DNA of 64,000 nucleotides from Ornithinimicrobium cryptoxanthini (GTDB taxonomy: Bacteria > Actinomycetota > Actinomycetes > Actinomycetales > Dermatophilaceae), in assembly GCF_023923205.1 (NCBI RefSeq), contig NZ_CP099490.1, positions 310,001 to 374,000 of the forward strand, read 5' to 3'. Positions 17,739 through 31,621 of this stretch are shown piece by piece. Every line of letters starts with the position of its first letter. The stretch's first letter is position 1. Made by a program: the position numbers and the translations under genes. The notes under the pieces were generated by a model. That model was not told the DNA's origin. It was given only the letters and a program-made list of their open reading frames with translations, and made no database searches.

Positions 17739-18362
17739 GTGAGCGAGTTGGTGGACCCGGACCTCGCTGCTCTGGCCGAGGAGATCGCCCACGAGGCCAC
17801 TACCTTCCTGGTCACCGTGCGCGAGCTGGCTGCCGGTGGCGCGCCCGACACCGCCCTGCCGCTCCTGCTGCTCGCCTGCACCCAGGTGCAGACAGCGGGC
17901 GCCAGACTCGGCGCGATGGTCGATGTGGTGCCGCACGAGCAGTTCGAGACCGACTCCGGTCCCGATGCCAACCTCGACGGGGTGCGACAGGGCCTGCACG
18001 CCCTGCTCGCCGGCGTCGATGAGTATGTCGAGGTCGAGGACCCGGTCCTGTCCGGCGAGGTGATCCCCGGCTGCCTGTCGGACGACCTCACCCAGGCCGC
18101 CGCTGACCTGGGCCACGGGCTCGCGCACCACCGGGCGGGCCGCACCCAGGAAGCGCTGTGGTGGTGGCAGTTCAGCTATCTGTCGGTCTGGGGCGAGCGC
18201 CTGGCCTCGGCGACGCGGGCGCTGCACAGCCTGCTGGCGCACGTCCGGCTCGACGCGGACGAGGAGCTGGTGATGGAAGCCAAGATGGCTGCGCTCCACG
18301 CTGAGCCTGAGGTCGTCTCAGGCCCGGACAGCGACCCTGAGTCAGAGCCGACACGGGTCTAG
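17739..18362 (+). CDS. DUF5063 domain protein
   Basis: An uncharacterised actinobacterial protein of 207 residues, recognised by its family look: LAEEIAHEATTFLVTVRELA near the start, a Trp-rich ALWWWQFSYLSVWGERLASAT in the middle, and an acidic tail. It is mostly helical with no signal peptide or membrane segment. The GTG at 17739 has GGGAGGGGCC upstream; an in-frame start at 17703 lacks a ribosome site. It follows recR closely, a placement common in actinobacteria, but no function is known. Its stop overlaps the stop of the convergent antiporter gene by four bases. Confidence 0.75.
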   Translation: MSELVDPDLAALAEEIAHEATTFLVTVRELAAGGAPDTALPLLLLACTQVQTAGARLGAMVDVVPHEQFETDSGPDANLDGVRQGLHALLAGVDEYVEVEDPVLSGEVIPGCLSDDLTQAAADLGHGLAHHRAGRTQEALWWWQFSYLSVWGERLASATRALHSLLAHVRLDADEELVMEAKMAALHAEPEVVSGPDSDPESEPTRV

Positions 18363-19765
18363 CGCTGGGCGTCAGCTGCCTTGACCGGGTGCACGTGCGA
18401 GCGTGCGACCAGCACCGCACGGATGACCATCGCCGCTGCCATCAGCCAGCCCACGACGTGCGCCCACAGTGGGTCGGCGATAAAGATCAGGGCCACCGCG
18501 ACCAGGATCGGCACCAGGTAGATGAGGGCCTGGAGCACGTAGGCGCCGAAGGTCGGCATCCGGACCCCGGCGCCGTCCGCCACAGCCTTGACCATGAAGT
18601 TCGGGCCGTTGCCGATGTAGGTGACGGCACCGAAGAAGACCGCGCCCAGACTGATGGCCACGAGGTAGGGCTCGTAGACGCCGGCCACTGCTGGTTCGCC
18701 GCCGAGCTCTCGCGCCATCTCGAAGAAGGTCACGTAGGTCGGTGCGTTGTCCAGCACCGAGGACAGCCCACCGGTGAAGAAATAGAAGGTGACCTCGTTC
18801 AGCGGCAGGCTCGGGGCCGCCTGCGCGAGGTACTTCAACGCCGGGATCATGGTCAAGAAGATGCCGATGAAGATCGCGGCGACCTCCAGGATGGGGCCCC
18901 ACTTGAACTTGTTGTCGACGAACCGGGCGACCTTGTCACCGGTGAGGTAGGAGATGGCCGCCACCGAGAGCATGATGATCTCGCGCAGCGGCACCCAGTC
19001 CATGAAGGCCGCCTGCCCCTCCTCGATCGCGCCGATATCGATCGAAGGTGCCAGAGCCACTGCGCCGACGATGACGGCCAGGTAGGCGAAGTTGATGATG
19101 CCCTTGACGCCCATCCTGGTGGTCCGTGATCGGTCCATCGTCAGGGCCTCAGGGCGCTCCTGCGAGTGGTACTTGCAGTCCAGGGCGTAGTAGGTGAGCA
19201 GCAGCAGCAGGTTGACGAACAGCCACATGGGCCACAGGCCGAACGTCCACGTGAACGGGACACCACGCAACATGCCCAGGAACAGTGGCGGGTCGCCGAG
19301 GGGGGTGAGCAGGCCTCCGCAGTTGGCCACGATGAAGATGGCGAACACCACGGTGTGGACACGGTACTTGCGCTGCTGGTTGGTGTTCAGCAGTGGACGG
19401 ATGAGCAACATCGCCGCGCCGGTCGTCCCGATAAAGGAGGCGATCAGCCCGCCGAAGGCCAGGAACAGCGTGTTGTTGCGGGGGCTGGCCGCGATGTCAC
19501 CCTTGAGGAAGATGCCGCCAGAGACCACAAACAGGGCCAGGAGCAGCGAGATGAACTGCGCGTACTCGATCAGCGCATGGACCACTGCAGAGCTGTCGCC
19601 ACCGAGGATGAACCAGAGCGCCACCGGGACGCCGAGCACGAGGGCCACCAACAGCTGGACCCGCTGATGCTCCCAGTGGTGAGCCGCAGCCGGGATGAGC
19701 GGCGCGAGAGCGATGCAGAGCAGCATCGTGACAAAAGGCAGAATGCTCCACCACTGGACTTCCAT
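18359..19765 (-). CDS. NhaD/CitM-like sodium:proton antiporter
   Basis: A 468-residue polytopic membrane protein with about 11-12 hydrophobic segments. The ion-transporter superfamily motif NCGGLLTPLGDPPLFLGML is in the first half and SSVLDNAPTYVTF in the second. These two inverted-repeat motifs with a broken helix and Asp/Asn in the site are seen in NhaD-type antiporters and related anion/arsenite carriers. Sodium/proton exchange is the likeliest role, but the ion is not proven. The same strand carries the phosphopantetheinyl transferase 94 bases upstream; a functional link is not obvious. Confidence 0.8.
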   Translation of the reverse strand: MEVQWWSILPFVTMLLCIALAPLIPAAAHHWEHQRVQLLVALVLGVPVALWFILGGDSSAVVHALIEYAQFISLLLALFVVSGGIFLKGDIAASPRNNTLFLAFGGLIASFIGTTGAAMLLIRPLLNTNQQRKYRVHTVVFAIFIVANCGGLLTPLGDPPLFLGMLRGVPFTWTFGLWPMWLFVNLLLLLTYYALDCKYHSQERPEALTMDRSRTTRMGVKGIINFAYLAVIVGAVALAPSIDIGAIEEGQAAFMDWVPLREIIMLSVAAISYLTGDKVARFVDNKFKWGPILEVAAIFIGIFLTMIPALKYLAQAAPSLPLNEVTFYFFTGGLSSVLDNAPTYVTFFEMARELGGEPAVAGVYEPYLVAISLGAVFFGAVTYIGNGPNFMVKAVADGAGVRMPTFGAYVLQALIYLVPILVAVALIFIADPLWAHVVGWLMAAAMVIRAVLVARSHVHPVKAADAQR

Positions 19766-19858: not shown

Positions 19859-20446
19859 TCAGATCGGTGGCACGCGCGGGTGCTGCTGCACTCGTGGTGG
19901 GGCCGTCGTCCCGCAGACGGTCAGCGCCGCGAGATAGCCGGCCAGCGGCACGTCGACCGGGCCCGACCACGTCACGTCCGAGTCGGTGGTGGGCCGATCG
20001 GGAGCGCCGGCCTTGAGCCGTGACTCGCCGCTGACCCAGGTCCACCCATCCGTGGTGCCGTCCAGATCCGCGAGACGCTGCACGTCGACACCGACCGGAT
20101 GGGTCCGGCAGAGCGCGACCACCACGACGAGCCCCGAGTGCGCGACCGACACCCAGGGTGGGAGGTCTCGGGTCGACGGCAGGGGTCCCCTGGCCCGGGG
20201 GCTGCCGTGCTGCTCCCCGCAGTCCGCGCAGGTGCGGTCCAGCAGGACCTGCGAGGGCGGGCAGCCGAGGTCAGCGGCGACGGCAGTCCGCAGGAGGGCA
20301 GCGCCCACCATCGACCGGCCCTGGTCGGCGGGGCGGTCCAGCGCCGACACCCGGGCCCGCTCGATGTCGTCGAGCAGAGGCAGCAGGCCGCGGTCGGCCT
20401 GGAGCAGGGAGCCCCACCACAGCTGGACCTCTGCGCCCTCCGCCAC
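19859..20446 (-). CDS. 4'-phosphopantetheinyl transferase superfamily protein
   Basis: A Sfp-like enzyme that would convert an apo carrier protein to its active phosphopantetheine form. The 195 residues include the substrate/CoA motif WVSVAHSG, the magnesium-binding VGVDVQRL and a shortened third motif (GESRLKA) in place of WTxKEA. A CADCGEQHG stretch may bind metal and is common in actinobacterial members. The GTG at 20446 has GAGAGG upstream. It is divergent from the adenylation/carrier gene across an iron box, so the obvious client is the carrier domain of that protein. The degenerate third motif lowers certainty about activity. Confidence 0.78.
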   Translation of the reverse strand: MAEGAEVQLWWGSLLQADRGLLPLLDDIERARVSALDRPADQGRSMVGAALLRTAVAADLGCPPSQVLLDRTCADCGEQHGSPRARGPLPSTRDLPPWVSVAHSGLVVVVALCRTHPVGVDVQRLADLDGTTDGWTWVSGESRLKAGAPDRPTTDSDVTWSGPVDVPLAGYLAALTVCGTTAPPRVQQHPRVPPI

Positions 20447-20477
20447 AATTACCTCTCATTTGTCTGACGTATCTAGG

Positions 20478-20496
20478 TCAGGTTAGCCTTACCAAC
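20478..20496. promoter_or_regulatory. IdeR/DtxR iron box in a divergent promoter
   Basis: TCAGGTTAGCCTTACCAAC matches the IdeR consensus TTAGGTTAGSCTAACCWAA at 16 of 19 positions, including the entire GGTTAGCCT core. It sits in the 51 bases between two divergent starts and ends one base before the GTG of the rightward gene. A bound Fe2+-IdeR dimer pair would cover both promoters, so both units are predicted to be on only when iron is scarce. A TTGTCT at 20459 and TAGCCT at 20484 could be the rightward -35 and -10, implying a leaderless message. Confidence 0.85.
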
Positions 20497-20497
20497 T

Positions 20498-23173
20498 GTG
20501 ACGACGCAGGTCCGCTCCCTACCGCCCGTCCTGGGCCGTTCTGGCCTGCGCTCCCTGACTCAACCAACCCTGGCTGAACCCACCCTGCTCGACACGGCAG
20601 ACCCGGCAGACCCGCAGGCGCCTGCCCTGGTCGGACCAGACGGCGCCACCCTCACCCACGGCGAGCTGCGCGAGCACGTGGCCGACCTGGCCCGTCAGCT
20701 GCCTGACCCGGCCGAGGGGCGGGCGTTGGTGCACCTGCCCATGCGCAACGACCTGGCCAGCGTGACGGCATACCTGGCCGTGCTCGAGTCCGGACACTGC
20801 GCCCTGGTCACCTCGGACGACCCCAACCGCACGGCGCCGATTCTGACGGCCTACCCGCCTGACGTGACTGCGACCGGTGACCCGACCGCACCGTTTGCGG
20901 TCCGCCCGGGCGGACCCGCCCACCTGCTGCACCCTGACGTGGTCCTGCTGCTGAGCACATCCGGCAGCACCGGGTCGCCCAAGCTGGTCCGCCTCTCCCG
21001 GGGCAACGTGCGCAGCAATGCCAGGGCGATCGCCGCCGCGCTCGCGCTGCGACCCACCGACCGGGGCATCACCAGCCTGCCGTTGCACTACTGCTTCGGG
21101 TTGTCCGTGCTGCACTCGCACCTCGTCTCCGGTGGGTCCGTGGCGGTCACCGACCACTCCGTGCTGGACCGTGGTTTCTGGGAGTGCGTCGACGAGCAGC
21201 AGGTCACAACCCTCGCCGTGGTCCCCCACTCGGTCGAGCTGCTCGCCGGGACGGGGGAGCTGGCCCGCCCGCACCCCTCGCTGCGCCTGGTCGCCCAGGC
21301 CGGAGGTCGTATGCCGAAGGGCCGGGTCCGCGAGATCGCCGCCCTCGGGCGTCGGCAGGGTTTTGACCTGGCCGTGATGTATGGCCAGACCGAGGCGACC
21401 GCCCGGATCTGCGTGCTGGACCCAGCACTGACGCAGGCCCACCCGGACGCGGTGGGTCACCCGGTGCCGGGGACCACGTTGCACCTGGACGCCGCAGTGC
21501 CCGATGCCGTCGACGGAGCAGGCGAGGTCGTGGTGCGCGGCCCCGGCGTGATGATGGGTTATGCCGAGCACCGTGATGACCTGGCGCTGGGGGCGATGCT
21601 GACCGAACTGCGCACCGGTGACCTGGGCCGGGTCGACGAGGCCGGCATCCTGCGGATCGTTGGCCGGCGCTCCGGCTTCATCAAGGTGTTGGGACTGCGC
21701 ATCGACCTGGCGGTGGTGGAGTCAGCGCTTGAGGCCGAGGGCCTGGACGTGTGCGTCACGGGGGACGACTCCGGGCTGCGGGTCGCGGTCGCACCGACCG
21801 CTGAGACCACACCGACCGGTGAGGAGGGGTCTCGGCTGGCCGCCCGGGCTCGTCGGATCGCCGCCGAGACCTCCGGCGTGGGGGTTGCCGCGGTCACCGC
21901 CCTCGCCGTCCCGCTCGCGCGACTGGAGAACGGCAAGGTGGACCGCGCCGGCTGCGACGCCCTGGTCCGTGCCGGAGTGCCGGACGAGTGCGAGGACACC
22001 CGACGCGGCGTCGCCGTGGCCTTCGGCGCCTCCCCGACCCTGGAGGTGCGGGTCGCTGGCGTGCTCGGCGAGGTGCTGGCCCGCGACGAGATCGACCTGG
22101 GTGCCAGCTTCGTCGAGCTCGGGGGCGACTCGCTGACGCACGTGCAGGCCTCGATCCGGCTCGAGGAGGTGCTCGGCCCGCTGCCCACGGGGTGGCACAG
22201 GCGGCCCCTGCGGCAGCTGGTGGAAGCGGGTCGCCGCGGCGCGTCCGACGGCGCACCGGTGACGCGCCGCACCGTCGAGACCTCCGTGCTGCTGCGCGCG
22301 GTCGCCGTGGTGATGATCTGCGGATCACACGCTGACCTGTTCCGGCTGCTCGGCGGTGCGCACACGCTCCTCGCGGTCGCCGGCTTCAACGCCGCCCGCT
22401 TCGGCCTGTCCGCGCCGCGCATCCCCACGCGGTGGCGCGGCACCCTGCGGATGTTGATCGGGGTAGCGGTCCCCACGATGGTGGTTGCCCTTTTCGGGAT
22501 GGTGACCCACGACCGCTATGGCTGGGGCAACGTGCTGATGGCCAACTGGGTGGCCGGCGACGTCACCTACGGCAAGCACAACGAGCTGTGGTTCATCGAT
22601 GCGCTGGTCGCCAGCCTGATCGTGCTGACCCTCCTGCTGTCGGTGCCTCCGCTGGCCCGGGCCTGGCGCGAGACCCCCTGGCGGGTCGCCATACTCATCG
22701 CTGTCCTGGGCCTGGTCCCACGCTTCGCCATCCTCAGCGTCGGCGACGGGGTGCTGCGCGGCATCATGCCGACCACGTTCTGGCTGTTCGCGATCGGCGC
22801 TGCAGTGGCGCACGCCGACACCCGGCGGCGCCGCCTGGTCACCCTCGGTCTGGCCGTCGTCGGCGGCATCACGTTCTTCCCCGACGACCCGGTCCGCAAC
22901 CTGACGATCCTCGCCGGGATCGCGGTGCTGACCCTGGTGCCCGAGGTGCGCCTCCCGGCCAGTTGGGTCGGCCCGATCAGCGTGCTGGCCGCGGCCTCGC
23001 TCTACATCTACCTCATCCAGTTCCAGATTCTCGGCTGGGTGCCGACCGCGCTCGGGGCGACTCTGGCCGCCCTCGCCGCCGGGTGCCTGCTGTGGTGGCT
23101 GGCCGCGCGCCCGGTGCGCCGGCTGCAGGATCTTGTGCCCGTCGCACCCTCCGTCCGTCCCCGTCGAAAGTGA
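20498..23173 (+). CDS. adenylation domain - carrier domain - membrane acyltransferase-3 fusion
   Basis: One 891-residue polypeptide with three parts. Residues about 35-490 are an AMP-forming adenylation domain: the P-loop LSTSGSTGSPK (152-162), YGQTE (295-299), TGD (373-375), GLRID (399-403) and ENGKVDR with the catalytic lysine (477-483). Residues about 510-580 are a carrier domain with the phosphopantetheine serine in LGGDSLTHV (Ser545). Residues about 590-880 are about nine membrane helices resembling acyltransferase-3/OatA proteins, with a conserved His in MICGSHADLF. The layout suggests a carboxylic acid is activated, tethered and passed to an acceptor at or across the membrane, similar in logic to DltA-DltC-DltB. 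Substrate and acceptor are unknown. It overlaps the ABC binding-protein gene by four bases and is preceded by an iron box. Confidence 0.85.
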   Translation: MTTQVRSLPPVLGRSGLRSLTQPTLAEPTLLDTADPADPQAPALVGPDGATLTHGELREHVADLARQLPDPAEGRALVHLPMRNDLASVTAYLAVLESGHCALVTSDDPNRTAPILTAYPPDVTATGDPTAPFAVRPGGPAHLLHPDVVLLLSTSGSTGSPKLVRLSRGNVRSNARAIAAALALRPTDRGITSLPLHYCFGLSVLHSHLVSGGSVAVTDHSVLDRGFWECVDEQQVTTLAVVPHSVELLAGTGELARPHPSLRLVAQAGGRMPKGRVREIAALGRRQGFDLAVMYGQTEATARICVLDPALTQAHPDAVGHPVPGTTLHLDAAVPDAVDGAGEVVVRGPGVMMGYAEHRDDLALGAMLTELRTGDLGRVDEAGILRIVGRRSGFIKVLGLRIDLAVVESALEAEGLDVCVTGDDSGLRVAVAPTAETTPTGEEGSRLAARARRIAAETSGVGVAAVTALAVPLARLENGKVDRAGCDALVRAGVPDECEDTRRGVAVAFGASPTLEVRVAGVLGEVLARDEIDLGASFVELGGDSLTHVQASIRLEEVLGPLPTGWHRRPLRQLVEAGRRGASDGAPVTRRTVETSVLLRAVAVVMICGSHADLFRLLGGAHTLLAVAGFNAARFGLSAPRIPTRWRGTLRMLIGVAVPTMVVALFGMVTHDRYGWGNVLMANWVAGDVTYGKHNELWFIDALVASLIVLTLLLSVPPLARAWRETPWRVAILIAVLGLVPRFAILSVGDGVLRGIMPTTFWLFAIGAAVAHADTRRRRLVTLGLAVVGGITFFPDDPVRNLTILAGIAVLTLVPEVRLPASWVGPISVLAAASLYIYLIQFQILGWVPTALGATLAALAAGCLLWWLAARPVRRLQDLVPVAPSVRPRRK

Positions 23174-24210
23174 ACCCCGTGCCCATCTCCCGCCCGACCC
23201 GTCGATCCCTGCTGGCCGGTCTGCTGATCGTGCCGCTGGCGCTGACCGCCTGCAGCGGTGGGGAGGACTACGTCCCGGATCCGGAGGCGTTGCAGATCTA
23301 CTCCTCCCAGCACCAGGAGATCACGCAGGCCTGGGCCGATAGCTTCACCGAACAGACCGGCATAGAGACCCAGGTGAGGCGCGGTCAGGACTCCTCGATG
23401 GGCCACATGATCGTAGAGGAGGGCGAGGCCTCCCCGGCCGACGTCTTCCTCACGGAGAACTCCCCGGCGATGACGGTCGTGGATCGCGCCGGCCTGCTGG
23501 CCCCGGTGGACCAGGCCGCCACCGACCAGGTGCCGGAGCAGCTGGTGCCCTCCTCCGGCCACTGGATGCCGATCGCCGCGCGCTCGACGGTGCTGATCTA
23601 CAACCCCTCGGAGATCTCAGAGGCCGAGCTCCCCCAGTCGATGATGGACCTGGCCGACCCTGAGTGGGCCGGCCGCTGGGGCGCGGCCCCCGGTGGCGCC
23701 GACTTCCAGGCCATCGTCGCGGGCATGCTCGCCGACCGTGGTGAGGAGCCGACCCGTGCCTGGCTCGAGGCGCTGGAGGCCAACGCGGAGGTCTACCAGA
23801 ACAACATTGCCACGATGAAGGCGGTCAACGCCGGTGAGGTCCCGGTCGGGATCATGTACCACTACTACTGGTATCGCGACCAGGCCGGCGACCGGTCCGG
23901 CAGCGGCAACACCCAGCTGCACTACTTCGGCAACCAGGACACGGGCGCCTTCGTCAGCCTGTCCGCCGGCGGTGTCGTGGCCTCGTCAGACATGCCGGAG
24001 GAGGCGCAGCAGTTCCTCGCCTATGTCACCAGCCCGGAGGGGCAGCAGGTGCTCGCGGACAGCGGGTCGATGGAGTATGCCGTGGGCACCGGTGTCGAGT
24101 CGGATCCGGCCCTGCCGCCGCTGGACACGCTGGACGCCCCGCCGGTCGACCCGGCCACCCTGAACTCTGACCAGGTCATCCAACTGATGACGGATGCCGG
24201 CATCCTCTAG
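23170..24210 (+). CDS. ferric-type ABC transporter substrate-binding lipoprotein
   Basis: A 346-residue extracellular binding protein of the FbpA/AfuA type. The signal LLAGLLIVPLALTACSGG has a lipobox (LTAC), so it should be lipid-anchored. The mature part begins LQIYSSQHQEITQAWADSF, typical of iron-binding FbpA-like proteins. Later tyrosines (MYHYYWYRDQ) are in the place where FbpA proteins coordinate Fe3+. Start GTG 23170 overlaps the stop of the upstream fusion gene; GTG 23179 is an alternative. The tight coupling to an iron-boxed gene supports iron as cargo. Confidence 0.88.
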   Translation: MNPVPISRPTRRSLLAGLLIVPLALTACSGGEDYVPDPEALQIYSSQHQEITQAWADSFTEQTGIETQVRRGQDSSMGHMIVEEGEASPADVFLTENSPAMTVVDRAGLLAPVDQAATDQVPEQLVPSSGHWMPIAARSTVLIYNPSEISEAELPQSMMDLADPEWAGRWGAAPGGADFQAIVAGMLADRGEEPTRAWLEALEANAEVYQNNIATMKAVNAGEVPVGIMYHYYWYRDQAGDRSGSGNTQLHYFGNQDTGAFVSLSAGGVVASSDMPEEAQQFLAYVTSPEGQQVLADSGSMEYAVGTGVESDPALPPLDTLDAPPVDPATLNSDQVIQLMTDAGIL

Positions 24211-25711
24211 AGGCTGGGGCACGGCCCTCGCGGCGGCCCTCGTCGCGGCGCTGACCGTCCTGCCGCTGCTCGTCGTCGGTCTGCAGGCCGGCTCGGCGGG
24301 GTGGACCGAGGCGGCGGACTACCTGCTGCGGCCACGGATCGGCGAGCTGCTCAGCAACACCGCCCGCCTGATGCTGGTCACCGTCCCCTCGACGGTCGTC
24401 GTCGGGGTGCTGGCGGCCTGGCTGGTCGAGCGCACCGACCTGCCGGGGGCGTCGTCGTGGCGCACGCTGCTCCTGGCCCCGCTCGCGGTCCCGGCCTTCG
24501 TCAGCGCCTACGCCTGGATCAGCCTGGCCCCGTGGATGACGGGCTTCCTCGGTGCCGCGCTGGTGACCACGCTGGCCTACTTCCCGTTCGTCTTCCTGCC
24601 GGTCGCGGCGCTGCTGCGGGCGCTGGACGGCACCGACGAGGAGGCCGCGCGCTCACTGGGGCTCTCCCCGGTCCGCGCGGTCGTGCGCACCGTCCTGCCC
24701 CGGCTGCGCCCGGCGATCAGTGGTGGCGCTCTCCTGGTGGCACTGCACCTGCTGGCCGAGTTCGGCGTGCTGGAGATGATGCGGTTCCAGACGTTCACCA
24801 CGGCGATCATGCAGCAGTATGCCGTCGGGTTCAGCGACACCGCCGGCAGCCTGTTGGCCTCGGTGCTGGTCCTGCTCTGCCTCCTGGTCCTGACCGTCGA
24901 GGTCGTCGCCCGGGGGCGGCGACGGGTCGCCCGCGTCGGGGGTGGCGCCCACCGTCGCGCCCAGCCGATCGCGCTGGGTCGCTGGGCTGCTCCTGCGCTC
25001 GCGTTCCTGACGGCCGTGGTCACGCTGGCCGTGCTGGTCCCGGTGGGCATGGTGGCGCGCTGGTTGCTGGCCGGTTCCGGGTCGGCCTGGGGCGCGGACC
25101 TGCTGACCGTCAGCGCGGCCACCATCGGGCTGGCGGTGCTCGGCGGAGTGGTGGCCACGATGCTGGCGCTGCCCGGAGCCTGGTTGCTCAACCGGGGCCG
25201 CTCGGCAGTGTCGGTGCTGTTGGAGCGGCTGACTTTCATCGCCAGCGCCCTGCCGGGGGTAGTGGTCGCCCTCGCGCTCGTGACGCTCGCGGTCAACTGG
25301 GCCCGGCCCGTCTATCAGACCGTCGCGCTGCTCGTGCTGGCCTACGCCATCCTCTTCCTGCCCCGGGCGATGGTCTCGCTGCGCTCCGGGCTGGCTGCGG
25401 CGCCACCGGAGCTGACCGAGGTTGCCCGGTCCCTGGGCGCGAGCGGGATGGGTGCCTTCCTGCGGGTCGTGCTGCCGCAGGCGGCGCCGTCCGTGCTGAC
25501 CGGCTTCGTGCTGGTGGCGCTCGCGATCAGCACCGAGCTGACCGCGACCCTGATCCTGGCACCGACCGGCACCGACACGCTCGCCCTGGCCTTCTGGAGT
25601 GCCAGCAGTGTGCTGGACTACACAGGCGCCGCGCCGTATGCCGCGGTGATGGTGCTCCTGTCGGTCCCGCTCACCCTGTTGTTGCGCCGTCAGATACTGG
25701 GGGGACGATGA
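24194..25711 (+). CDS. ferric-type ABC transporter permease
   Basis: A 505-residue permease with two homologous halves and about 12 membrane helices, like FbpB/SfuB. Each half carries an EAA-type coupling loop: ALDGTDEEAARSLGLSPVRA in the first and ELTEVARSLGASGMGAFLRV in the second. The gene overlaps the binding-protein gene by 17 bases and the ATPase gene by four, so it is part of one message driven from the iron-boxed promoter. Transport of Fe3+ or a simple Fe3+ complex across the membrane is inferred. Confidence 0.9.
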   Translation: MPASSRGWGTALAAALVAALTVLPLLVVGLQAGSAGWTEAADYLLRPRIGELLSNTARLMLVTVPSTVVVGVLAAWLVERTDLPGASSWRTLLLAPLAVPAFVSAYAWISLAPWMTGFLGAALVTTLAYFPFVFLPVAALLRALDGTDEEAARSLGLSPVRAVVRTVLPRLRPAISGGALLVALHLLAEFGVLEMMRFQTFTTAIMQQYAVGFSDTAGSLLASVLVLLCLLVLTVEVVARGRRRVARVGGGAHRRAQPIALGRWAAPALAFLTAVVTLAVLVPVGMVARWLLAGSGSAWGADLLTVSAATIGLAVLGGVVATMLALPGAWLLNRGRSAVSVLLERLTFIASALPGVVVALALVTLAVNWARPVYQTVALLVLAYAILFLPRAMVSLRSGLAAAPPELTEVARSLGASGMGAFLRVVLPQAAPSVLTGFVLVALAISTELTATLILAPTGTDTLALAFWSASSVLDYTGAAPYAAVMVLLSVPLTLLLRRQILGGR

Positions 25712-26781
25712 GCGACATCCAGATCCGTGACGTGTCGGTGGGCTACGGTGCCACTCCGGTCCTCGACGACATCAACCTGACCGTGCGGGGTGGGTCCACC
25801 ACGGCGGTGCTGGGCGGCTCCGGCAGTGGCAAGACCACGCTGTTGCGGGTGATCGCCGGGTTCCTGCGTCCCAGCCGAGGGGAGGTCGTGGTTGACGGCC
25901 GCGTGGTGGCCGGACCGGGAGTCTGGGTGTCCCCCGAGAAGCGCGGCATCGGTTATGTGCGCCAGGAGGGCGGGCTGTTCCCGCACCTGAGCGTGGCCGG
26001 CAACATCGCCTTCGGTCTGCCGTGGCCGCGGCGTCGGCACCGGGAGCGGGTGCTGGAGCTGCTCGACCTGGTCGACCTGCCCGCTGCACTGGCCGACCGA
26101 CATCCTGATCAGCTCTCCGGTGGCCAGCAGCAACGGGTGGCGCTGGCGCGTGCCCTGGCACCGGGCCCGGACCTGGTGCTGCTGGACGAGCCCTTCTCCT
26201 CCCTCGACACGGCGTTGCGGGCGAGCACCCGGGAGGCGACGAGCCGTGCCTTGCGGACGGCCGGCGCCACCGCCATCCTGGTCACCCACGACCAGGGCGA
26301 GGCGCTCTCCTTCGCTGATGAGGTGGCCATCCTGCGTGGTGGCGCGTTCCGCCAGATCGCGCCACCCCGGGTGATCTACGGCGAGCCCGTCGACGCGCTG
26401 GTGGCCGCCTTCCTCGGTGATGCGGTGCTGGTGCCTGGGACGGCCGACACGGGTGCGGTGCGCTGTGCCCTCGGGCGTCTGCCCGTGCGCGGTTTCGTCG
26501 CGCACGGTGAGGTGGAGGTGATGCTGCGGCCCGAGCAGATCGTGCTGACCGACCCCGGGCAGGGGATGGTGGACGCGGTGGTGCGCAGCCTTGCCTACTT
26601 CGGGCACGATGCGGTGGTGGAGCTCGATGTCGAGACAGGGGTGTCAGCCGACGGTGCGCAGCACGGCGTGCGGGCCCGGGTCGCCGGGTTGGCACCTCCG
26701 TCGCCCGGCCAGCGGGTGGGTCTGTCTGTGGTCGGCCCGGTGCGCGTCTATCCCAGGGCGGACGTGAGCCACCTCAGCTGA
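25708..26781 (+). CDS. ferric-type ABC transporter ATP-binding protein
   Basis: The 357-residue ATPase has Walker A GGSGSGKTTLLRVIAG, Q-loop VRQEGGLFPH, signature [15 protein letters not shown], Walker B DLVLLDEPFSSLD and switch VTHDQGEA. The extra C-terminal region (about residues 240-357) contains a TOBE-like OB fold with VMLRPEQIVL, as in FbpC/PotA-type proteins. The start ATG 25708 follows GGGGGGACG. It is the last gene of the iron-regulated unit; 90 bases separate it from the sensor kinase. Confidence 0.93.
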   Translation: MSDIQIRDVSVGYGATPVLDDINLTVRGGSTTAVLGGSGSGKTTLLRVIAGFLRPSRGEVVVDGRVVAGPGVWVSPEKRGIGYVRQEGGLFPHLSVAGNIAFGLPWPRRRHRERVLELLDLVDLPAALADRHPDQLSGGQQQRVALARALAPGPDLVLLDEPFSSLDTALRASTREATSRALRTAGATAILVTHDQGEALSFADEVAILRGGAFRQIAPPRVIYGEPVDALVAAFLGDAVLVPGTADTGAVRCALGRLPVRGFVAHGEVEVMLRPEQIVLTDPGQGMVDAVVRSLAYFGHDAVVELDVETGVSADGAQHGVRARVAGLAPPSPGQRVGLSVVGPVRVYPRADVSHLS

Positions 26782-26871
26782 CCACCGGTGTGGCCGGCAC
26801 CGTCCCAGGGAGGAGTGGTCACCGACCCTGGACGGGTGCCCCGGAGGTGTGCTGCTCACTACGCTGCCGTC

Positions 26872-28827
26872 ATGCAGACCATGTCGACGCGGGCATCGTG
26901 GTGGATGACCGCCGCGAGCTATGTGTGGGTGTGGGGCGTGACCTCGGTGACCTGGCCAGACCGTCCGTGGCTCTGCCTTGGTGTGTCGCTGTGGTTCGGG
27001 CTGGCAGCCTGGGTCGTCACGCGCGCGCCCTGGCCTGGAGTCGTGCTCACGGCGGTCGGACTCGTGGGGTTGGGGTTGCTCGGGATCGGGCCGGAGGCGC
27101 CGGTCCCGATGGGCCCGCTGTTCATCGCCGCCGCACTGCTCGGCTACCAGCGCCCGCCGATCTGGAGCGTGTGGTCGGTCCCCATCCTGGTGGGGGTGAC
27201 CGCGACGTTCGGCCACTGGGAGCTGCAGAGCATCGTCTTTGGCACGGTCCTGCTCTTCATCCCGTGGTGGTTCGGGGTGCAGGTCCGGGTGCGGGACGAT
27301 CACCGTCGCCGCGCCGCAGAGGATGCACGGCGACTCGCCAAGGTGGACCCGGTGGTGCAGGCACAGCTGGCGGCGGCCACCGAGCGTGACGGGGTGGCCG
27401 CCTCGGCCTTCCGCGCGATCGACCAGGCTGTGGAGGAGATGACGGGCACCGCCCGGAGTGCGCGAGCGACGCTGGAGGCGGGAGCGATCGATGCCATCCA
27501 CCGCAGCGGTGAGATGGCGACCCAGCGACTGCGCGACCTGCTGGTGGTCCTGCGTGAGGCTCCGCCTGCGGAGCGGCGGGGCGCTTTAGACGACGCCGAG
27601 GACGGCGCGACGGCACAACGGCAGGACCGAGCGAGTCGACATCAGCGCGCGGTTGACCTGGGGCTGGCGGCGCTGGTCCTCCTCGACGTCCTGGCGATGC
27701 CTCTGGTGATGTCGCTGCTCTCCGACGACGACGTGCCGGCGTGGCCGTCGGTCCCGTTCCTCCTGGTCGTCATCGTGCCGCTGATGGTCGCGGTGGGGGT
27801 GCGTGGGAGGTTCCCCGTGGCGGCACAGCTCGGTGCAGCGGGAGTCCTGCTCGTGGGCACGGCCGCCGGGGTGGCGGACCTGGGACGCGAGGGCCTGTGG
27901 CTGACGATCGTGGGGGTCGCCCTGTCGTGGTCGGCGGGACGTGCCGGCACCCAGCGGGTGCTGCTGGCCTGGTTGGCGTTCTCGGTGACCACGTGGGCCA
28001 TGGTCTGGCTCGACATGGGCTACTACCTGTGGATCTATCTCGCCATGCACCTGTTGACCTTTGCGGCGGCAGCCATCTGGTCGGGGCACCACGCGGCAGA
28101 GACGGCCCATCTGTTGCAGGTGCTCGACCGCCAGTCTGAGATCGCTGATGCTGAGCACGCTGCTGTCTCCAGGGAACGCCTGCAGCTGGCACGCGACCTG
28201 CACGATGCGGCGAGCCACGCCGTGGGCACGATGATGATGCAGGCCAACGCGGCTCGGGTGCTGCTGGCTCGTGACCCGGACGGGGCCAGGGCAGCGTTGG
28301 ACGCGGTCGTCGAGATTGGTGGCCAGGCGACCCAGGAGCTGCGGGTGATCTCCACGACAGCCGACGGCAGCGCCGGGGACTCAGCCACGGCGGCAGGATT
28401 GGGCGTGGGTCTGAGCGAACTGCTGGCACCGCACGTGGCGGCCGCACGACGCGCCGGTGTGCACGTCAGCACCAGCCTTGACCTGCGCAGCGTCCCGTCA
28501 CCCCGGGACGCGCACCTGCTGGTGAGGGTGCTGCGCGAGGGGTTGGCCAACGCGGTGCGCCATGCCCCCGGCAGCGAGGTGGTGGTCAGAGTGAGCAGCA
28601 GCGCCGGCGAGTTGCAGATGGTGATCACCAACGGCCCGGCGCCGCCCGTTCCAGGGCAGGATGTGGCTGTGACGACAACGACGGGGTCGGGGCTGGGGCT
28701 GCGTGGTCTCCAGGAGCTGGTGGGTGAGGCGCGTGGCGAGCTGGTCGCGGGTGCCGCGGGAGCGGGTTATGAGCTGCGCGCCAGCTTCCCGGAGCACCGT
28801 GCCGCGAGCGAGACGGCGGTCTCGTGA
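26872..28827 (+). CDS. two-component sensor histidine kinase with a duplicated, half-degenerate sensor/DHp module
   Basis: A 651-residue NarX/DesK-type kinase. Residues about 10-130 hold four or so membrane helices. Residues about 165-225 look like a HisKA_3 dimerisation helix pair (ERDGVAASAFRAIDQAVEEM, ending LRDLLVVLRE) but have no phospho-accepting histidine and no ATPase domain after them. A second membrane block follows (about 250-415). Then comes the real DHp with His in LARDLHDAASHAVG, an HATPase with the N-box EGLANAVRHA and a G-box GSGLGLRGLQE. It overlaps the response-regulator gene by four bases. The stimulus is unknown. The ATG at 26881 is an alternative start. Confidence 0.88.
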   Translation: MQTMSTRASWWMTAASYVWVWGVTSVTWPDRPWLCLGVSLWFGLAAWVVTRAPWPGVVLTAVGLVGLGLLGIGPEAPVPMGPLFIAAALLGYQRPPIWSVWSVPILVGVTATFGHWELQSIVFGTVLLFIPWWFGVQVRVRDDHRRRAAEDARRLAKVDPVVQAQLAAATERDGVAASAFRAIDQAVEEMTGTARSARATLEAGAIDAIHRSGEMATQRLRDLLVVLREAPPAERRGALDDAEDGATAQRQDRASRHQRAVDLGLAALVLLDVLAMPLVMSLLSDDDVPAWPSVPFLLVVIVPLMVAVGVRGRFPVAAQLGAAGVLLVGTAAGVADLGREGLWLTIVGVALSWSAGRAGTQRVLLAWLAFSVTTWAMVWLDMGYYLWIYLAMHLLTFAAAAIWSGHHAAETAHLLQVLDRQSEIADAEHAAVSRERLQLARDLHDAASHAVGTMMMQANAARVLLARDPDGARAALDAVVEIGGQATQELRVISTTADGSAGDSATAAGLGVGLSELLAPHVAAARRAGVHVSTSLDLRSVPSPRDAHLLVRVLREGLANAVRHAPGSEVVVRVSSSAGELQMVITNGPAPPVPGQDVAVTTTTGSGLGLRGLQELVGEARGELVAGAAGAGYELRASFPEHRAASETAVS

Positions 28828-29483
28828 TCCGCATCGTCCTGGCCGACGACCAGGCCCTTCTGCGAGCCGGACTGCGCTCCGTGCTGACGACCGAGGAGGA
28901 CTTCTCGGTCGTCGGGGAGGCCTCGGACGGTGCGGAGGCGGCACGGATCGCCCAGGCGCTGGACGCCGACATCGTCCTCATGGACATCCAGATGCCAGGC
29001 GTTGACGGGATCGAGGGGGTGGGCCGCATCGTGGACGGTGGGGTGCGTGCCAAGGTCTTGATGCTCACCATGTTTGACCTTGATGAATATGTCTATGGCG
29101 CCCTTCGCGCTGGCGCGTCCGGCTTCCTGCTCAAGTCTGCGCAGCCCGAGGAGATCAGCCGAGCCGTGCGGGAGGTGCACGAAGGCGCCATGCTGTTCTC
29201 ACCGACCGTCACCCAGCGGCTGGTGCAGGCCTATGTCCGCAGACCCCCGGCCACCGACCAGGTGCCGGAGGCGCTCACCACCCTGACCGAGCGGGAGCTG
29301 GACGTGGTGGCCGGGATCGCCCGTGGTCTTTCCAACGCCGAGATCGGTGCCGAGCTCTACCTGGGGGAGACCACCGTGAAGGCCCACGTGAGTCACATCC
29401 TCAGCAAGCTGGGCCTGCGCGATCGGGTGCAGGTCGTGGTGCTGGCCTACGAGTCAGGGTTCGCGGGCAGCAGCGACGGATAG
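28824..29483 (+). CDS. NarL/FixJ-type response regulator
   Basis: The 219-residue partner of the kinase gene it overlaps. The receiver domain has the acidic pair in VLADDQALLRAGL, the phospho-acceptor Asp in DIVLMDIQMPGVDG and the conserved Lys in SGFLLKSAQPEE. The C-terminal LuxR-type HTH is LTERELDVVAGIARGLSNAE through TTVKAHVSHILSKL. It should bind DNA when phosphorylated; no target is visible. It is convergent with the FocA-type gene (10 bases between the stops). Confidence 0.93.
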   Translation: MIRIVLADDQALLRAGLRSVLTTEEDFSVVGEASDGAEAARIAQALDADIVLMDIQMPGVDGIEGVGRIVDGGVRAKVLMLTMFDLDEYVYGALRAGASGFLLKSAQPEEISRAVREVHEGAMLFSPTVTQRLVQAYVRRPPATDQVPEALTTLTERELDVVAGIARGLSNAEIGAELYLGETTVKAHVSHILSKLGLRDRVQVVVLAYESGFAGSSDG

Positions 29484-30563: not shown

Positions 30564-31621
30564 ATGGCACGTTCAGGGCGGATCACAAACAAGAGTGGCC
30601 CCTGCCCGCATCACTGCAACGGCCGCTACCAGGCCTTCTACATGAGACCGGACCAGGGCTTCCACCGTGCGCCCTCGACGTTCGACACGCGCTCGGACGC
30701 CGAGGCCTGGTTGGCCCGTGAGCGGCGACCTCAAGCCACGCACCCGCGGGCTGTATGCCCGCCTGCTCGAGCGGTTCCTGCTGCCCGAGTTCGAGGACAT
30801 GGCACTGCGAGACATCACCCCCGCCGTCGTCCGGGTCTGGCACGCCGGCCTCGACCCGCACCAGCCCACCCAACGTGCCCACGCCTACGGGCTGCTGCGC
30901 TCCATCCTGGCCACCGCCGTCGCCGATGAGATCCTCGCGGCCAACCCTTGCAAGATCCGCGGTGGCGGGACCACCACCCGCGCCCGCCGCGTCGAGCCGG
31001 CGACCCTAGACCAGCTCGCCACCCTGGTGCAGCAGATGCCGCCGCGGCTATCAGGCGCTGGTCCACCTCGGTGCCTGGTGCGGGCTGCGATTCGGGGAGA
31101 TGGCCGAGCTGCGCCGCGCCGACCTCGACCTGAGCACCGGGGTCGTCCACATCCGCCGAGGCGTCGTCCGCGTCCAGGGGCAGGTGAGCGTGGGCACCCC
31201 CAAGTCCGCCGCCGGCATCCGCGACGTCGCCATCCCGCCCCACCTCATCCCGGTTCTGGGCGACCACCTGGTTGCCCACGGCGCACCCGGCCCCGACGCG
31301 CTGGCCTTCTCCTCCGTCACCGACCCCGACGTCCAGATCCACCCCAACACCCTCTACCGGCACTGGTACAGGGCCCGCGATGCCGCCGGCCGACCCGACC
31401 TGCGCATCCACGACCTGCGACACACCGGAGCCGTCCTCGCCGCGCGCACCGGCGCCACCCTCGCCGAACTGATGGCACGCATCGGCCACTCCACCCCCCA
31501 AGCCGCCCTGCGCTACCAACACGCCGCCCAAGGCCGCGACGCCCACATCGCCGCACAACTCTCCCAACTCGCCTCCGAGGTTGATCCCGTTGGACGGGCA
31601 TCGCGCCCCGGACCTGCCTGA
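30564..31621 (+). pseudogene. decayed tyrosine recombinase (phage/ICE integrase)
   Basis: Pieces of one integrase lie in three frames. From 30564 the frame reads MARSGRITNKSG and on to TFDTRSDAEAWLARER. A second frame from about 30722 gives DLKPRTRGLYARLLERFLLP (core-binding domain). A third from about 31046 gives YQALVHLGAWCGLRFGEMAE and the catalytic parts HDLRHTGAVLAA and ARIGHSTPQAALRYQHA. The join near 30720 seems to have lost about 40 residues, judged against the usual spacing of this family; the join near 31045 is a simple frameshift. No intact start-to-stop frame remains, so the enzyme should be dead. It marks one end of the arsenic/phosphate island. Confidence 0.82.

Follow-up and report, generated by a model that had tools for sequence, protein, structure and literature searches.

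A recurrent actinobacterial locus linking a predicted adenylation-carrier-acyltransferase fusion to an iron box and a ferric-ion importer

The window analysed here is a 64,000-nucleotide stretch of the Ornithinimicrobium cryptoxanthini genome (contig NZ_CP099490.1, positions 310,001 to 374,000); unless a genome position is stated, coordinates count from its first letter. It contains a plus-strand gene (20498..23173) for a single 891-aa protein that fuses an adenylation domain, a carrier domain and a transmembrane acyltransferase domain, and for which we use the shorthand AAT (adenylation-carrier-transmembrane acyltransferase fusion). A divergent minus-strand gene (19859..20446) encodes a 195-aa protein resembling phosphopantetheinyl transferases (PPTase-like), called from its motif residues and an under-cut-off Pfam match, and between the two lies a DtxR/IdeR-type iron box (20478..20496, entered without a strand). 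AAT is followed on the plus strand by genes for a ferric-ion binding lipoprotein of the SfuA/YfuA type (the substrate-binding protein, SBP; 23179..24210), a double-domain ABC permease (24194..25711) and an ABC ATPase with a TOBE_2 domain (25708..26781), the latter two assigned by Pfam; the start codons of the SBP and ATPase genes are our choice. Comparison across genomes shows that, as far as sequence can define such a set, AAT, the PPTase-like protein, the DtxR-type box and an importer of the SfuABC/FbpABC type recur together as a unit.

The adenylation domain of AAT (20585..21967, approximately residues 30-490) carries motifs that we take to be A3 (TSGSTGSPK), A5 (YGQTEATAR, which includes R303) and A10 (NGKVDR). 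It is followed by a carrier domain of the peptidyl carrier protein (PCP) type (22040..22252, approximately residues 515-585), whose pantetheine serine S545 (codon 22130-22132) sits in a GGDSL motif and is invariant in an 85-row alignment. Both Pfam matches, to the AMP-binding core and to the carrier with its serine, exceed the cut-off, as expected of a carrier-linked adenylation (A-PCP) protein.

The acid that AAT activates is probably not an amino acid. The closest solved relatives of the adenylation domain, by sequence or fold, include LgrA, VinN, MenE and oxalate-CoA ligase. At the position of the amino-clamp Asp (GrsA position 235), an LgrA-guided alignment places Gly201 in 85/85 rows, and a VinN-guided alignment places residue 199, which is Cys in AAT and Cys, Val, Thr or Ser across the rows; no Asp occurs at 201 or 199 among the 85 aligned rows, so that AAT does not have the signature of an amino-acid-activating nonribosomal peptide synthetase (NRPS) adenylation domain. 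R303 is invariant across the aligned rows and aligns with the VinN arginine numbered Arg331 in the literature, a correspondence that we assigned from chain position. Published reports are cited here by PMC number, in each case for the portion of the text that was accessible: VinN Arg331 has been proposed to recognise the substrate carboxylate (PMC7756342, PMC12186527), and its position is equivalent to GrsA 331 (PMC11253843). The missing clamp Asp and the invariant R303 together make D-alanine unlikely, and we favour a non-amino acid, perhaps one with a second carboxylate. An attempt to name the acid from structure was abandoned, as VIA-align returned a near-tie of ligases for o-succinylbenzoate (OSB), coumarate, oxalate, benzoate, anthranilate and salicylate. 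Adenylation-only relatives (L030-L033, L129 and L133) carry a YGxTEA..R-like motif, and several of them adjoin small carrier-like, SDR-like and other open reading frames (ORFs) and not an importer, with two further LuxE/LuxC-like ORFs common to L032 and L033 (gene guesses by eye); these relatives possibly belong to a separate acid pathway.

The membrane domain (22280..23128, residues 595-877) appears, from its predicted structure, to be a divergent TmAT-like acyltransferase. R600 and H611, which form the R-X10-H motif of the first transmembrane (TM) helix, are invariant in two alignments (84/84 and 85/85 rows), as are S834 and Y838 of the SXXXY motif in TM helix 9. The RXXR motif at the cytoplasmic face of TM helix 3 is not kept (R645 in 75/85 rows, Arg at position 648 in 24/85). 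The Pfam score for Acyl_transf_3/AT3 (PF01757) is 22.5 bits (23.8 in the genome search) against a gathering cut-off of 31 bits, and many of the listed AAT homologues bear a precomputed PF01757 label. Because RXXR is not kept, we speak of a divergent TmAT-like domain rather than a canonical AT3 domain. The predicted structure matches TmAT-fold acyltransferase chains in VIA-align, a second look that followed a Foldseek search in which the membrane domain had no acyltransferase match. At E 0.001, the Pfam listing of AAT contains Acyl_transf_3 and no MBOAT family. The first-pass annotation, made from the letters of the window, had described one 891-residue protein with adenylation, carrier and acyltransferase-3-like parts; the Pfam matches, the invariant motifs and the TmAT-fold match bear this out, including the relationship of the membrane domain to acyltransferases. 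In simulations of OafB, one RXXR arginine contacts the 3'-phosphate of CoA (PMC9833829), so the loss of this motif in AAT points to the carrier, rather than CoA, as the acyl donor.

The PPTase-like protein most likely serves AAT. Its AASDHPPT_N match falls under the Pfam cut-off, but its motif residues are identical across 19 aligned sequences, and its gene is divergent from AAT in 18/18 close orthologue loci. A genome profile search gave two PP-binding matches, AAT and one at genome position 2265938 that is presumably the fatty-acid carrier, and a single ACPS-family (PF01648) match lies away from the AAT locus; these two carrier matches and the ACPS-family match elsewhere are what suggest that the PPTase-like protein is dedicated to AAT.

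The box between the divergent genes was scored against a DtxR/IdeR consensus. It agrees at 15/19 positions, a score reached by 0/200 shuffles, and lies 1 base away from the GTG listed as the AAT start, so that the earlier picture of a PPTase gene diverging across an iron box stands. Among the close loci, 17/18 have a box of ≥14/19, including L016, where the 15/19 site shows up only when the whole locus is listed and lies 8 bases past the alignment anchor. With genes from a simple gene caller and the PPTase genes left among the controls, a box of ≥14/19 lies upstream of AAT or the SBP gene in 64/87 full-AAT loci versus 19/797 control genes of the same loci; L011, L012, L014 and L018 score low in this count owing to starts called too far upstream (actual values 15, 15, 14 and 13 of 19). 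When ≤1 mismatch is allowed, the core box pattern has two sites in the genome, the AAT locus and genome position 1508900-1508914 (G000:C1; L200, L201), the latter approximately 250 nt from the 5' end of a minus-strand Peripla_BP_2 (siderophore-type) match at 1507929-1508648. The genome also encodes a DtxR-family protein, found by its C-terminal domain only. The predicted operator by the start codon, together with this DtxR-family protein, makes AAT a candidate member of a DtxR/IdeR regulon.

The importer is, by its predicted parts, a complete SfuABC/FbpABC-type ferric ABC transporter, as had been proposed. Its SBP matches YfuA (E 6e-112), SfuA (E 4e-109) and other ferric-binding proteins, with Cys25, Tyr229 and Tyr230 invariant across an alignment of 20 SBPs; this ferric-binding-family SBP with its Tyr-Tyr pair, together with the double permease and the TOBE-containing ATPase, is the composition that defines the FbpABC/SfuABC class.

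To what extent AAT and the importer travel together was assessed in 394 sampled genomes of the class. AAT matches at E 1e-30 were found in 72/394, and full-length AAT in 67/394; five genomes (G131, G315, G161, G095 and G261), in which the match covers the adenylation part only, were counted among the other 327, and G080, with its AAT truncated at a contig end, was retained among the 67. An Fbp-type SBP (E 1e-40) is present in 67/67 genomes with full-length AAT versus 51/327 others, as judged with a profile built from AAT-linked SBPs and in genomes that are related to one another. In 50/67 genomes, the SBP gene lies ≤8 kb from AAT, in five AAT-importer gene orders, and this neighbourhood survey upholds the coupling claimed from the window. 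Importer genes are directly downstream of AAT in 15/18 close loci. An SBP tree of 101 rows requires 14 switches between AAT-linked and unlinked states, and branches with good support make at least 13 of these unavoidable; the number depends on which AAT-lacking genomes were included, as we selected 20 of the 51 that have an SBP. Such repeated changes suggest that the association was rebuilt or lost many times, and the AAT-linked SBPs include some only about one-third identical to that of the window. AAT is also patchy inside one genus, with a match in 154/396 sampled genomes and two matches in several of them.

Permease, ATPase and AAT lie in this order on one strand in 14/15 mycobacterial-type loci, and in 4 of those 14 the SBP gene is also visible, preceding the others; ten of the 15 are the loci closest to the query. 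In Mycobacterium smegmatis, an importer comprising MSMEG_3633, 3635 and 3636 was judged siderophore-independent by the authors, and cells that lack both siderophores grow less well in low iron once MSMEG_3635 is deleted (PMC6684656). MSMEG_3635/3636 increase in response to citrate stress (PMC10597346). We liken MSMEG_3633-3636 to the importer of the window by description, not by sequence comparison; neither MSMEG_3631 nor MSMEG_3632 occurs in the two papers examined for them.

The reading that we prefer, to which we assign a probability of about 0.5, is that AAT performs an iron-repressed export-acylation whose product is an Fe3+ ligand that stays with the cell and serves the importer. Under low iron, the repressor would leave the box, and the PPTase would load pantetheine onto S545. 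The adenylation domain would then activate a common non-amino acid, which probably has a second carboxylate recognised by R303, and load it onto the carrier. The TmAT domain may take the acyl group from the carrier instead of CoA and move it through the membrane to a hydroxyl or amine outside the cytoplasm, borne by either an envelope glycan or lipid or a near-cell small molecule. The acylated product would bind Fe3+ with moderate affinity and pass it to the lipoprotein SBP for uptake, in effect acting as a short, cell-associated siderophore substitute. Iron repression, the acid class, carrier-to-TmAT transfer, the extracytoplasmic acceptor, Fe3+ binding by the product and hand-over to the SBP are the steps that we infer. 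IucA/IucC have 0 matches in the genome, which does not fit an NRPS-independent siderophore (NIS) pathway, and this result, together with the two PP-binding matches in all, suggests that the machinery is dedicated to AAT.

Several observations weigh against this reading. The second carboxylate contact of VinN, Ser299, aligns with Ala268 of AAT (by count on the alignment), and an R303-like Arg also occurs in adenylation-only relatives (Amycolatopsis and others) outside iron loci, so that R303 may mark a clade and not a dicarboxylate. The R-X10-H arginine, which AAT keeps, likewise contacts the 3'-phosphate of CoA when OafB is simulated (PMC9833829), and this weakens the case for a carrier donor. 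The SBP gene is not near AAT in 17/67 genomes, and 13 of these 17 have a weaker SBP match (E ~1e-63 to 1e-125), in the range of AAT-lacking genomes. Two mycobacterial-type loci (L097 and L098) have AAT with neither adjacent importer nor box and keep a CaiB-like neighbour that linked loci also have, which possibly reflects a loss of the importer link or a second role. Among the 16 unlinked AAT loci assessed, a box of ≥14/19 lies near AAT in 10 and is missing in 6. The first-pass annotation had staked its proposal on the family not being widespread without iron genes or boxes, and the outcome is largely, though not wholly, in its favour: the unlinked SBP genes and the six boxless loci count against it, while the SBP present in every full-length-AAT genome and the ten boxes at unlinked loci speak for it. 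Finally, co-location cannot tell ligand synthesis from a general envelope response.

The best-surviving alternative is a diffusible minimal siderophore: AAT would use its TmAT domain to acylate a small metabolite, and the released product would bind Fe3+ outside and deliver it to the Fbp-type SBP. The genomic coupling of AAT and importer fits this equally, as do the lack of IucA/IucC and the single other carrier match in the genome, and an MFS-transporter-like ORF (by eye), a candidate exporter, lies ≤7 kb from AAT in 4/87 loci of four lineages (L023 is an example; L070 is a guess). Other observations weigh against a released siderophore: the SBP belongs to the ferric-ion (SfuA/FbpA) class and not to the Peripla_BP_2 class, the importer of M. 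smegmatis is siderophore-independent in its authors' judgement (PMC6684656), and simple gene calls within 7 kb of AAT in 87 loci gave no widely recurrent gene besides importer and PPTase. Two wider neighbour clusters (38 and 7 loci) look, on inspection by eye, like importer genes read in reversed frames.

A less probable alternative holds that the target of AAT is an envelope polymer, acylated when iron is low to adjust charge, permeability or iron access, with an acyl group that does not bind iron and a regulator common to AAT and the importer. The AT3 proteins described in a review mostly modify surface glycans (PMC9558356), and the genomes in which AAT stands apart from the matched SBP gene fit this reading, but plain co-regulation needs no adjacency, and the importer linkage arose or went repeatedly. 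One-chain D-alanylation of the Dlt type (or another amino-acid ester) under iron starvation, to which the activation-carrier-membrane transferase order had given rise, is very improbable and was ruled out as the main explanation by the absent amino clamp (Gly201 or Cys199, depending on the alignment) and the TmAT fold of the transferase.

A stronger form of the cell-associated ligand proposal is that a carrier-fed TmAT domain builds a carboxylate ligand that stays with the cell and passes Fe3+ to the Fbp-type importer, which would constitute a third ferric-uptake route in actinobacteria, distinct from both classic siderophores and plain ion import. We regard this as tentative and somewhat below even odds; the retained R-X10-H arginine, whose OafB counterpart also contacts CoA, lowers the estimate slightly.

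Other genes around the locus were considered as parts of the system and set aside. A CitMHS_2 transporter gene (18359-19765) lies on the strand of the PPTase-like gene, 93 nt past its end, and a common transcript of the two is possible; citrate import as a part of the system was rejected, the CitMHS-like gene being unmatched in the 18 close loci (E 1e-6). The genes for a sensor kinase and a NarL-like response regulator (26788-29483), directly 3' of the importer on the same strand, were likewise unmatched at this threshold and excluded. Further on (30667-31621), overlapping ORFs after a formate-transporter gene resemble a tyrosine recombinase/integrase (called by eye).

With full-length AAT in 67/394 genomes of the class, the cassette is common, and its coupling to the importer suggests enzyme-assisted iron capture. 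The ferric importer of M. smegmatis supports siderophore-free growth at low iron, with Fe3+ delivery unexplained there (PMC6684656), and AAT is a deletable candidate for that step. AAT is also a natural test case for the use of a carrier-bound donor by TmAT acyltransferases. If it does use one, AAT would be, to our knowledge, the first TmAT enzyme whose acyl donor is a fused carrier. No description of an A-carrier-AT3 fusion or of an iron linkage of AAT was found in the main texts of the open-access literature; the parts of the cassette are of known kinds, and there is a genuine possibility that the principle of uptake is novel.

Each part of the cassette has a recognisable counterpart. In the Dlt system, DltA activates, DltC is loaded as the carrier and DltB transfers at the membrane; AAT follows the same activate-load-transfer logic, but in one chain, with a fused carrier, a TmAT in place of an MBOAT transferase, no amino clamp and an iron box, so that the close analogy to surface D-alanylation drawn at first does not hold. 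VinN offers a possible parallel for acid recognition through the arginine that aligns with R303. With the AT3/TmAT enzymes OafB, OatA, HGSNAT and GWT1, AAT has in common R-X10-H, SXXXY, a multi-helix membrane core and the TmAT fold; it differs in lying behind adenylation and carrier domains, in not keeping RXXR and in its sub-threshold Pfam score. The accessible AT3/TmAT literature describes acyl-CoA donors and, as fusion partners, SGNH, alanine/serine racemase and NRF domains. SfuABC, FbpABC and YfuABC agree with the window in SBP type, Tyr-Tyr pair, double permease and TOBE ATPase, and whereas the accessible portions of the literature on these transporters and on the M. smegmatis importer mention no partner acylating enzyme, the importer of the window has AAT.

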